Shown here: positions 1-3,009 of the stretch, in pieces
How positions within the stretch are numbered: position 1 is the first letter of the stretch
How the letters are laid out: each line of letters opens with the position of its first letter
Assembly: GCF_900115755.1 (NCBI RefSeq)
Contig: NZ_FOXQ01000001.1
Location: 496,001-560,000 of the forward strand
Length of the DNA stretch: 64,000 nucleotides
Reading direction: 5' to 3'
Source of the DNA: Parafilimonas terrae
Lineage (GTDB): Bacteria; Bacteroidota; Bacteroidia; Chitinophagales; Chitinophagaceae
The notes under the pieces: model-generated
What the model was told of the DNA's origin: nothing
The model's input: only the letters and a program-made list of their open reading frames with translations
Databases searched by the model: none
Program-made: the position numbers and the translations under genes

Positions 1-356
1 TGAAAACATTAACCAAGGCCGAAGAACAGGTTATGCAGGCGCTCTGGAAAATTGATAAAGGTTTTTTAAAAGATATAGTAGAATCCATGCCTAACCCAAA
101 ACCCCATCCCAATACGGTGGCTACGCTTTTGAAAATATTGATTGAAAAAAAATTTGTAGTTACAGAAACCTTCGGCAGGATGAATGAATATTCGCCCGCT
201 GTATCCAAACAGGCCTATTCAAAAAACACTATGAGCAGTTTGGTGAAAGGATATTTTGGCGGCTCATTCAGCAAAGCCGTTTCCTTCCTGGTAGAAGAAA
301 ACAAATTAAGCGTGGAAGATCTTGAACTATTGCTTCAACAATTAAAAAAGAAATAA
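1..356 (+). CDS. BlaI/MecI-family transcriptional repressor (first base of start codon outside window)
   Basis: This is a small winged-helix repressor of the BlaI/MecI/CopY type. The frame is open from base 1: the bases tg-aaa-aca-tta precede the first in-window ATG at 33, so the true ATG almost certainly begins one base before the window. That would give about 118 residues, normal for the family. The N-terminal half (AEEQVMQALWKIDKGF, then a PHPNTVATLLKIL recognition-helix region) fits the BlaI helix-turn-helix, and the C-terminal half is the usual dimerisation helix region ending in a lysine-rich tail. It stops at 356, one base before the M56 gene, which is the classic blaI-blaR arrangement. 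In such pairs the membrane protease senses a signal and inactivates the repressor. Here the inducing signal is unknown. Confidence 0.9.
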   Translation, partial: KTLTKAEEQVMQALWKIDKGFLKDIVESMPNPKPHPNTVATLLKILIEKKFVVTETFGRMNEYSPAVSKQAYSKNTMSSLVKGYFGGSFSKAVSFLVEENKLSVEDLELLLQQLKKK

Positions 357-357
357 T

Positions 358-3009
358 ATGCTGCAGCAACTAAGTATTTACCTCTTGAAGGTAACCAGCA
401 TTAGCGGGCTTCTTTTTTTATACTATCACATTGCGCTGCGCAATAAACGCTTTCATTATTATAACCGTTTTTATCTTTTAATGGCAGTTGCCATAAGCAT
501 TGTTTTGCCCTTGCTAAAGCTGGAATGGTTTACTTTTTTCAGCGACTCTGATCAAACTATTCATCTCTATAAAATTATTTATGGCAGCGGTGAACATGAA
601 GTTATGGTAACCGGCAAGACCGGTATTAACTGGGAACAACTTACAATATATGCTATGGTAGCAACAGGCCTTGTTTTACTTGCCGTTTTATGCAGCCGCA
701 TAATAAAAATCAAGCTGCTGAAGAAAAACTATCCTGTACAGCAGTTTACAGATTTTGATTTCATAAATACCGATATTTCATCAGCACCGTTCTCTTTTCT
801 TAAAGATATTTTCTGGAGAAATGATATAAGCCTGGAAGAAGAAACCGGCAAACAAATACTGCAGCATGAGATTACACATATCAGGCAAAAACATTCGTGG
901 GATAAGCTGTTTATGCAACTGATAATGTGTTTTTATTGGATGAACCCCTTTTTTCACCTTATAAAAAAAGAACTGTATTTAATACATGAATTTATTGCCG
1001 ATGAAGAAGCTGTAAAACATGCAGATGCAGACGCTTTTGCCAAAATGTTATTAACTGCCCAGTTTGGAAAATTCAATTTTTTACCTGCACAATCTATTTT
1101 TTATTCATCTATTAAAAGACGATTAACAATGCTTACCATTTCAAAGAAACCCCAATTTAGTTATGCAAGAAGATTAATGATTTTACCATTAATCACAGCC
1201 CTCGTTTGCCTGTTTGCTTTTACCGTAAAAACAAGAAATGCAGGCAACGCCATCCCGGTGTTGGCAAAACCTTTTGTATTGGTTGTTGATGCAGGGCATG
1301 GCGGAGCAGATAAAGGCGCATCAGCAAATGGTATGTATGAAAAAGATGCCACTTTAAAAATTGCACAAAAAATAAAAGAGCTTTCATCTCAATATAACAT
1401 TGATGTAATACTTACCCGCAACAGCGATGTATATATGAACCCACGTGAAAAGTCAGATTTTGCGAATACACAAAATGCAAATGCGTTTATTTCGATTCAT
1501 GTAAACACTAATGATAAAGAACATCCAAAAGAATCAGGTTTTGAAGTATTGCTTTCTTCGAAGTCTGATGAAAAGTTTGCTACCCAAAACAAAGTGCTGG
1601 GTTCTGCTATTCTTCAAAATATAAGCAGGGATTTTACCGCAGCGCCATCTTTACAAACACGCAGTACCGGCATATGGGTATTAAAGAACAGTAACATTCC
1701 TTCAGTTTTAATTGAATGCGGCTACATAACCAACAAAGAAGATGCAGCCAATTTAAAAGACGATGCAAAGATTGAATTGATAGCGAAAAATATTCTCGAA
1801 GGAATAGCAGCTTATGCAAACCACGCAGCAACCAGTATAAGGGATACCATACCTGCAAACATACTTAATGTTACTGCCGACAAACAACCATTATATGTTG
1901 TAAACGGGAAGCCATCTTCTGAAGCAGAAATCAAATTAATTAATGAAGCAGATATTGAGCGTATTGATGTTTTAAAAGATTCTGCATCCCGAGTAATCTA
2001 TGGCCCAAAAGCAGAAAATGGAGTTGTATTAATTACTTTAAAAACGTCTGCGAAAAAAGCCCAGGAACCATTATATGTTGTGGATGGAAAAATTGTTTCA
2101 AAGGAAGAAGCTATAAAGAATGAAGCAACCAATATTGAATCAGTAAACGTTTTAAAAGACAAATCAGCCATTGATAAATATGGCGATAAAGGAAAGAATG
2201 GCGTAATAGAAATAACTTCTAAGAATGCAGCTAAAGAGCCAATCGTGTTGAAAGTGCCCGATAATGTTTTATATGTAATTGATGGAAAAGTTTCAAGCAA
2301 AGAAGAATATAATAAGCTTGACAAAAAAACAATAGAATCAGTAAACGTTTTGAAAGACAAACCAGCCATTGATAAATATGGCGATAAAGGGAAGCATGGC
2401 GTAATAGAAATAACTTCTAAGAATGCAGCTAAAGAACCAATCGTGTTGAAAGTTCCCGTTGATGTTTTATACGTAATTGACGGTAAAATTTCAAGCAAAG
2501 AAGAATATAATAAGCTCGACAAAAAAACTATAGAATCAGTAAACGTTTTAAAAGACAAACCGGCAATTGATAAATACGGTGATAAAGGCAAGAATGGCGT
2601 AATAGAAATAAAATCAAAAGATCAAACCGGGAACAGTACAAGCAATAACAACAAATCAATTGATGTAAAAGATTCAAACACTAAACCCATTTTTACCACG
2701 GCACAAATTGAACCTCAATTCCCCGGCGGTGCCGAGGCATGGGGCATTTACCTGGCGAAACAACTGGATGCAAGTGTACTTGCCAAAAGAAAAGCGCCTC
2801 CTGGCATTTACACAGTTACACTTTCCTTTATTGTGGATGAAGACGGAAATTTATCTGATGTAAAAGCATTAAATGATCCCGGTTACGGCGCCGGTGCAGA
2901 GGCTGTTCGTGTGCTTAAACAAGGGCCAAAATGGCTGCCTGCCATTGAAAACGGGCATACTGTTGCATTCCTGAACAAACAGAAAATCGCCTTTAAAATT
3001 TCAGAATAA
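358..3009 (+). CDS. M56 (BlaR1-like) membrane peptidase fused to Amidase_3, plug-like repeats and a TonB-like C-terminus
   Basis: This 883-residue multi-domain sensor starts one base after the blaI stop. Residues 1-290 form a BlaR1/MecR1-type M56 membrane protease: hydrophobic segments lie near 5-27, 38-54, 96-114 and 272-290, the zinc motif HEITH is at 170-174, and a downstream HEF/E211 is a candidate third ligand. Residues 306-487 form an N-acetylmuramoyl-L-alanine amidase (Amidase_3). Its DAGHGG (H314), E328, SIHVN (H381) and IECGY (E453) are all present, so both enzymes look intact. Residues 511-752 hold four LYVxxGK...IESVNVLKD...YGxKGxNGVIxI units, resembling the TonB-dependent-receptor plug motif. 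Residues about 784-883 (PQFPGGAEAW...) resemble the TonB C-terminal domain. The amidase follows the fourth membrane helix and should be periplasmic. I infer a cell-wall-responsive regulator of the upstream repressor; the role is not proven. Confidence 0.85.
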   Translation: MLQQLSIYLLKVTSISGLLFLYYHIALRNKRFHYYNRFYLLMAVAISIVLPLLKLEWFTFFSDSDQTIHLYKIIYGSGEHEVMVTGKTGINWEQLTIYAMVATGLVLLAVLCSRIIKIKLLKKNYPVQQFTDFDFINTDISSAPFSFLKDIFWRNDISLEEETGKQILQHEITHIRQKHSWDKLFMQLIMCFYWMNPFFHLIKKELYLIHEFIADEEAVKHADADAFAKMLLTAQFGKFNFLPAQSIFYSSIKRRLTMLTISKKPQFSYARRLMILPLITALVCLFAFTVKTRNAGNAIPVLAKPFVLVVDAGHGGADKGASANGMYEKDATLKIAQKIKELSSQYNIDVILTRNSDVYMNPREKSDFANTQNANAFISIHVNTNDKEHPKESGFEVLLSSKSDEKFATQNKVLGSAILQNISRDFTAAPSLQTRSTGIWVLKNSNIPSVLIECGYITNKEDAANLKDDAKIELIAKNILEGIAAYANHAATSIRDTIPANILNVTADKQPLYVVNGKPSSEAEIKLINEADIERIDVLKDSASRVIYGPKAENGVVLITLKTSAKKAQEPLYVVDGKIVSKEEAIKNEATNIESVNVLKDKSAIDKYGDKGKNGVIEITSKNAAKEPIVLKVPDNVLYVIDGKVSSKEEYNKLDKKTIESVNVLKDKPAIDKYGDKGKHGVIEITSKNAAKEPIVLKVPVDVLYVIDGKISSKEEYNKLDKKTIESVNVLKDKPAIDKYGDKGKNGVIEIKSKDQTGNSTSNNNKSIDVKDSNTKPIFTTAQIEPQFPGGAEAWGIYLAKQLDASVLAKRKAPPGIYTVTLSFIVDEDGNLSDVKALNDPGYGAGAEAVRVLKQGPKWLPAIENGHTVAFLNKQKIAFKISE
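2068..2613 (+). repeat. In-frame tandem repeats (plug-like units) inside the M56-amidase gene
   Basis: Units 2 to 4 of the plug-like repeat are nearly identical in DNA as well as protein. The motif ESVNVLKDK recurs at residues 594, 660 and 726, a 66-residue (198-bp) period. The spacer ITSKNAAKEPIVLKVP occurs twice unchanged. The first unit (residues 511-562) is much more diverged. Such near-identity indicates recent duplication or ongoing gene conversion, and copy number may vary between strains. Confidence 0.9.

Follow-up and report, generated by a model that had tools for sequence, protein, structure and literature searches.

BlaR1-type receptors are antibiotic (penicillin) sensors. A gene in the window (the whole 64,000-nucleotide stretch of Parafilimonas terrae DNA analyzed here) raises the question of what such a receptor might sense when a cell wall amidase occupies the place of its penicillin-binding domain.

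One open frame joins four kinds of domain

Positions 358 to 3009 of the forward strand form a single intact open frame of 883 amino acids. Directly 5' lies a gene for a BlaI/MecI-type repressor (Penicillinase_R; positions 3 to 356, forward strand, with the A of the ATG one base outside the window; Pfam, 99.8 bits). The original prediction of a single protein with an M56 protease, an amidase, plug-like repeats, and a TonB-like tail was confirmed by four Pfam domains above their cutoffs: Peptidase_M56 at residues 159 to 259 (45.3 bits; cutoff, 31), Amidase_3 at residues 309 to 484 (149.9 bits; cutoff, 27), Plug (56.5 bits; cutoff, 23.9), and TonB_C at residues 819 to 881 (39.9 bits; cutoff, 24.6). 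The amidase and the plug, for which a domain search had been proposed, are thus both among them. No penicillin-binding or transpeptidase domain was found in the protein with Pfam and NCBIfam.

All features of the fusion protein are read from the forward strand. Four predicted membrane helices and the M56 gluzincin take up residues 1 to 296 (positions 358 to 1245; AlphaFold [AF2] and Foldseek), with the HExxH motif at residues 170 to 174 (positions 865 to 879). The Amidase_3 domain, compact and without the AmiA-type insertion, spans residues 306 to 488 (positions 1273 to 1821; Pfam and Foldseek). Four plug-like repeats with hand-set limits follow at residues 498 to 562 (positions 1849 to 2043), 576 to 634 (2083 to 2259), 640 to 703 (2275 to 2466), and 712 to 772 (2491 to 2673); all four were recognized by NCBIfam, our own profiles, and AF2, and the first also by Pfam. 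The TonB_C-like domain ends the protein at residues 787 to 883 (positions 2716 to 3006; Pfam and Foldseek). The SusC/RagA models TIGR04056 and TIGR04057 each matched in four stretches, which bears out the earlier count of four repeats; taken whole, TIGR04056 stayed under its NCBIfam cutoff. The NCBIfam TonB model TIGR01352 also scored below threshold (16.3 versus a cutoff of 27.1).

AlphaFold models of residues 1 to 491 (27 sequences; mean pLDDT, 82.2; pTM, 0.47) and 497 to 883 (9 sequences; mean pLDDT, 75.9; pTM, 0.33) contained four long helices, the M56 domain, the amidase, four similar beta-alpha units, and the TonB_C fold; the pTM values are low, so the placement of the domains relative to each other is uncertain. 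An antisense open frame of 197 codons (positions 1998 to 2591, reverse strand) lies opposite the plug repeats and probably reflects the repeat rather than a gene.

The fusion recurs across the Chitinophagaceae

Of 294 Chitinophagaceae genomes, at least 79 carry the M56-Amidase_3 fusion. In 78 of these, one match runs from residue 20 or less to residue 420 or more; in G004, two matches lie in the same frame. In a named collection, the fused frame was present in 80 of the 80 loci kept from the 410 relatives among the matches listed. The architecture is therefore a recurring one, as the original prediction had proposed to check, and its presence in other genomes excludes a fusion created by an assembly or sequencing error. 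The same counts refute a chance or erroneous fusion of neighboring genes, in favor of which nothing was found and which we regard as almost certainly wrong.

Among the matches listed, those of five more family genomes stop between residues 360 and 419, and an in-frame TAG occurs in two of the at least 79 genomes (G285 and G216). Within the genus, the fusion lies in one open frame in five of eight genomes and in pieces at two contig ends in a sixth (G006); the two genus genomes without it are only 66 to 67% complete. At the order level (198 genomes), the full-span matches among those listed all fell within the Chitinophagaceae. At the phylum level (395 genomes, three candidates scored per genome), the matches listed included one full-span match outside the family, in a genome from another family of the class (G673). 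The named loci include Limnovirga, Agriterribacter, Ferruginibacter, Niastella, Sediminibacterium, Terrimonas, Longitalea, and many MAGs; one MAG with the fused frame is labeled Flavobacterium. From 143 loci, 126 frames spanning M56 and amidase were obtained, of which 109 were distinct once identical ones were merged.

The membrane part is predicted to be built like BlaR1

AF2 predicted helices at residues 2 to 27, 30 to 52, 92 to 124, and 265 to 296. By sequence prediction, three of the four exceeded the hydropathy cutoff, and the loop charges agree with a four-helix topology. The fusion protein would share this predicted core with BlaR1 and MecR1 of Staphylococcus aureus and Bacillus licheniformis, and it likewise has a C-terminal exodomain past helix 4 and an adjacent BlaI partner; it differs in carrying Amidase_3 where the penicillin-binding domain was, followed by plug and TonB_C modules. 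Foldseek aligned the front part with the BlaR1 membrane/protease domain 8exr (TMt, 0.61; E value, 2.7e-3) and with whole-chain BlaR1 entries at E values of 4e-06 to 5e-05, yet with an rmsd of 17 to 28.

The M56 residues H170, E171, H174, E211, and D215 are invariant in all 109 distinct relatives, with the HExxH-37-E-x3-D spacing of S. aureus BlaR1, whose gluzincin set is given as H201/E202/H205/E242/D246 in passages of the BlaR1 paper (Nature 2023, PMC9834060). BlaR1 Asp210 is nearly strictly conserved; at its spacing, the fusion proteins differ in having His179 (109 of 109). The same passages place BlaR1 extracellular loop 56-96 in the sensor site, from which the ligand displaces it; the sensor then shifts toward the membrane, and BlaI is cut by the protease (PMC9834060). 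Loop 56-95 of the fusion protein matches this loop in place. AF2 modeled it at a pLDDT under 50, so the model does not decide whether it enters the amidase cleft in the BlaR1 manner.

The amidase keeps its zinc site and sometimes loses its catalytic Glu

The earlier placing of His314, Glu328, His381, and Glu453 proved correct. In the Amidase_3 family, the first three are zinc ligands and E453 is the catalytic Glu. Foldseek matched the domain to 4rn7 (TMt, 0.86) and to CwlD, CwlV, and others. Fold, zinc site, and compactness are shared with the compact Amidase_3 enzymes (CwlD, CwlV, LytH, and the Nostoc AmiC2 domain; 4rn7, 7rag, 1jwq, 5emi, and 7tj4), from which the fused amidase differs in being joined to a membrane signaling protease. 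Unlike AmiA/B/C amidases, the 109 fused proteins lack the long regulatory insertion before the catalytic Glu: the His-to-Glu distance is 61 to 81 residues, versus 141 to 152 in 30 stand-alone Chitinophagaceae amidases (the best 30; of 98 genomes, 91 had such a match). Besides the fusion gene, the window's genome has one other Amidase_3 gene, which is stand-alone.

All 109 relatives retain the zinc ligands. At the E453 position, 98 have Glu, and the others have Gln (5), His (2), Asp (2), Gly (1), or Ala (1); a second alignment left two further rows gapped there. The claim that both enzymatic sites are complete is thus true of the window protein, but 11 of its 109 relatives lack the catalytic Glu, a further difference from the compact enzymes. 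These losses represent nine changes on a quick tree of the 109 rows, with columns 445 to 460 left out. All four site residues are kept in 30 of 30 stand-alone amidases, a difference from the fused set (0/30 versus 11/109) that is not significant (Fisher P = 0.12). The dN/dS of the amidase segment was 0.066 to 0.177 in nine of ten pairs (the tenth was identical, and dS was high in several); the two Glu-less pairs tested gave 0.119 and 0.103, with no relaxed selection seen. In one Glu-less pair (L065-L046), the amidase/M56 divergence ratio was 2.17, against a 95th percentile of 1.82 among 476 Glu-keeping pairs.

Amidases that lose the Glu while keeping zinc ligands and constraint are as expected of a binding or sensing domain. 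They are the main support for reading the protein as a BlaR1-type signaling protease whose penicillin-binding exodomain was replaced by a peptidoglycan amidase (plus a plug and/or TonB_C tail in most) and which senses the wall through that amidase. We give this reading an even chance; against it, a Glu kept in 98 of 109 would be needless for a pure sensor, and the excess of losses over stand-alone amidases is not significant. The same data bear on the alternative that the amidase is the effector and not the sensor. In that case, the protein would be a wall hydrolase that is tethered to the membrane and regulates itself: BlaI and the M56 protease would set its dose, with the protease responding to its own level or to some other signal. 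A site complete in 98 relatives is in keeping with an enzyme, and control of a compact amidase without an insertion would have to come from elsewhere; in the 11 Glu-less relatives, however, the enzyme would be useless, and constraint was seen in two such pairs. We judge the effector alternative rather unlikely.

Relatives without the amidase and the plug/TonB_C tail

Bacteroidota M56 proteins without the amidase keep BlaI (20 of 20 stretches around their genes) and mostly keep plug and/or TonB_C, so the amidase is not needed for the circuit, which counts against sensing of the wall through it. These proteins (e.g., L147, L148, and L143) resemble the fusion proteins in the M56 core (42 to 52% identity), BlaI, and a similar tail, and L147 and L148 have tandem dyads (in L176 and L178, the same loci); they differ in having no amidase domain. 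On a tree of 16 related amidase-less M56 proteins and 46 of the 109 fused ones, the former are scattered among the latter (nine label changes), and starred branches force at least four amidase gains or losses; long branches are present. An unfiltered search for an amidase remnant in 11 of the 16 gave nothing significant (best E value, 0.42). By sequence comparison, the amidase is a cassette, present in some members and absent from others, that sits between helix 4 and the tail.

The best Foldseek match of the tail was the TonB C-terminal domain 6i97_D (E value, 7.8e-4), with SusC plugs matching more weakly. The protein thus shares the C-terminal fold of TonB energy transducers by Pfam and Foldseek, with TIGR01352 below its cutoff. 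The repeats have the sequence and fold of the SusC/RagA plug, and in sequence they correspond to its second half (profile positions 55 to 107). In contrast to a SusC/RagA transporter, no outer membrane beta-barrel was found in the protein; up to four plug-like units stand in a row on a predicted inner membrane protein. By our own profiles, plug units occur in 75 of the 109 fused relatives and TonB_C in 71; 56 have both, and 19 have neither. Twelve proteins have at most 524 residues and end shortly past the amidase.

These distributions are relevant to a second alternative: the tail senses outer membrane transporters or the state of the envelope, and the amidase, a labile passenger, serves as a wall anchor for the protein. 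Tails kept by most amidase-less relatives, repeated gain or loss of the amidase, and the wide occurrence of both modules among fused proteins all argue for it, while the 19 relatives with neither module detected, including the 12 short ones, keep M56 and amidase. We hold a sensing tail with a passenger amidase to be distinctly unlikely.

In two genomes of one genus, an AmiA-type stand-alone amidase gene lies directly 3' of an amidase-less BlaI-M56-plug-TonB_C operon (L267:3903-4988 and L268:3020-4087, reverse strand). An ordinary amidase gene in this place, where no fused amidase is present, would suit an effector. At L271 and L279, an apparent amidase-bearing relative adjoins an amidase-less M56 gene. 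At L279 (4055-5905, reverse strand of the locus; G253:C18), two BlaI-M56 pairs lie in a row, the first without the amidase; in the second, the amidase is present but split into two overlapping frames, and this pair is possibly a decaying duplicate.

The BlaI partner and its candidate operators

The window BlaI matches MecI (1sd6; phmmer E value, 3e-06). BlaI lies upstream of the fusion gene in 106 of 109 relatives (101 found by pattern and 5 by profile, one of them cut and one with masked bases), and the remaining three begin near contig ends; in 28 relatives, blaI and the fusion gene overlap by 4 bases. In the alignment, Leu97 of the window BlaI falls at the P1' Phe of the cleavage site (residue 102 in MecI). 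At this position, Phe occurs in 12 of 101 BlaI proteins and another residue in 89; in 79 of 101, a Phe stands one residue before. In this respect, most partners differ from those of BlaR1/MecR1. The missing P1' Phe and His179 are real departures from BlaR1, and both tell against BlaR1-like wall sensing.

Upstream of the window's blaI, dyads are found at G000:C32:495938-495973, with a third at 495983-495996 (bases -62 to -4, just outside the window). Mapping of BlaI sites upstream of the gene pair had been proposed, and ACTA-N6-TAGT dyads were found in 98 of 101 blaI promoter regions; 94 of these have at least two copies. Shuffled sequences gave an expectation of 0.66 regions, and other gaps (0 to 13) reached at most 8 regions. 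The spacing is mostly 20 bp (77 neighbor spacings in the 101 regions). TAnnTTTG, presumably the Bacteroidota promoter element, is present in 66 of the 101, most often 16 bases from the dyad start. S. aureus BlaR1 similarly has tandem operators within a divergent region. On sequence grounds, the conserved dyads are a candidate BlaI operator in the Chitinophagaceae.

A 20-bp tandem dyad occurred in 33 of 44 chosen family genomes, with a reversed control of 0 in every genome, and 29 of 30 loci (covering 30 of 38 places) hold BlaI and M56 frames. Some of these pairs have no amidase, so the operator marks this BlaI group and not the amidase. Tandem dyads are nearly confined to BlaI-M56 pairs, so regulation may act mainly on the operon itself, a point in favor of the amidase as effector.

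Neighboring genes

In 47 of 104 loci (genomes G011 and G021 counted twice), a gene for an FtsE-like ATPase is found upstream of blaI in divergent orientation, and the best FtsE-like match was never on the other side or on the same strand. Of the other loci, 38 have at least 1,000 bases upstream and no such gene, 17 have less room, and 2 have no BlaI. The best NCBIfam match of the ATPase is FtsE, at 232.5 bits and below the cutoff of 264.85. In the window's genome, the FtsE-like ABC ATPase is at G000:C32:493708-494394 (L047:3708-4394, reverse strand), and another frame (L047, 4586 to 5785) lies between it and blaI.

The intergenic region shared by blaI and the ftsE-like gene holds dyads in 40 of 40 distinct regions read. 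They adjoin the blaI start and are separated from that of ftsE by some 60 bp or more (in 8 of the 40, the start is misplaced and the intergenic region exceeds 700 bp). The ftsE-like gene is thus a lead as a possible second BlaI target. FtsEX of Escherichia coli activates division amidases, and the divergent neighbor hints at a link to cell separation; it also fits the amidase as effector. Among the 92 loci that have an upstream frame, 14 carry a divergent LpxB-like gene; 3' of the fusion, a PurM-like gene in convergent orientation follows in 32 of 91.

A possible mechanism and its precedents

In the wall-sensing mechanism that we infer, four helices would anchor the protein in the inner membrane, with M56 facing the cytoplasm and both amidase and tail facing the periplasm, a topology predicted from the model. 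At rest, BlaI would bind the tandem dyads of its own promoter. Engagement of the periplasmic part by wall material (or a tail ligand) would shift the periplasmic loop and fourth helix; the protease would then remove BlaI by cleavage, and the two-gene operon would be induced, raising the amount of receptor-amidase. Where a divergent ftsE-like gene is present, as in many relatives, it could respond too.

Domain order and fold, the invariant M56 set and zinc ligands, and the nearly constant BlaI with its dyads, many beside TAnnTTTG, point to this mechanism, as does the position of loop 56-95 relative to the BlaR1 loop described in part of PMC9834060; AF2, unsure of the domain placement (pTM, 0.47) and of the loop, weighs against it. 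The original prediction had proposed a regulator that senses peptidoglycan fragments or outer membrane receptor contact and relays to BlaI. Its BlaR1-type frame, swapped exodomain, and link to BlaI are well supported by the M56 spacing, the 106 of 109 upstream genes, and the operators; as to sensing, we infer that the amidase or the tail may recognize peptidoglycan or outer membrane receptors. A possible but doubtful extension is that the cell reads its own peptidoglycan through an amidase that has turned, or is turning, into a receptor domain and so tunes expression of the amidase (and of the ftsE-like gene in many species), forming a wall hydrolysis and cell separation feedback circuit dedicated to the Chitinophagaceae.

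Precedents exist for parts of this scheme. Amoroso et al. (2012, PMC3305447) describe a wall dipeptide that acts on BlaI/MecI in B. licheniformis. The joining of M56 to a wall hydrolase is already in print: passages of a review of M23 hydrolases report M56 and M23 in one protein, with mixed architectures together under 1% of hits, and these passages give no organism, partner, or function (PMC9662197). Those proteins likewise combine an M56 peptidase with a peptidoglycan hydrolase, but the hydrolase is an M23 endopeptidase and not Amidase_3. A literature search whose reach stopped short of subscription papers and preprints, with sources seen in part, found no M56-Amidase_3 fusion. If wall sensing is correct, the BlaR1 frame would be a general wall-sensing chassis, here in a family-wide version with a wall enzyme as the sensor, and which wall signal reaches BlaI would become directly testable. 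The natural Glu-less variants separate binding from cleavage, and the fusion family supplies the candidate operator.

Other BlaI genes and dyads

The window's genome has 3 AACTA-N6-TAGTT sites, versus 27 for the reversed control; two are at blaI, and the third overlaps the stop codon of a TonB-dependent-receptor-like frame. ACTA-N6-TAGT occurs at 19 places versus 204 in the control, 3 of them at blaI. Twelve of the 16 other single dyads were read: 7 lie inside frames of at least 130 codons and 5 outside, and no clear second operator target was seen among them. A second BlaI target in this genome is possible from the sequence; a wider BlaI regulon was rejected, with few exact dyads and most of those read lying inside frames. 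Two further BlaI genes (G000:C32:712209-712547 and G000:C19:75395-75730) each precede an M56-like frame with another C terminus, and exact dyads are few despite these two pairs.

Elsewhere, a pair of dyads spaced 24 bp apart lies, together with a promoter-like site, near a membrane-protein-like frame at L204:1487-1524 (G069:C52), where no BlaI frame was found. A tandem BlaI-type operator lies away from the fusion operon at L171:1501 (G034:C3:378539), where neither a BlaI nor an M56 frame was found; we take the frame after it to be thiolase-like. Another extra tandem BlaI-type operator is present at G242:C6:132484, in a genome of the same genus as G034.
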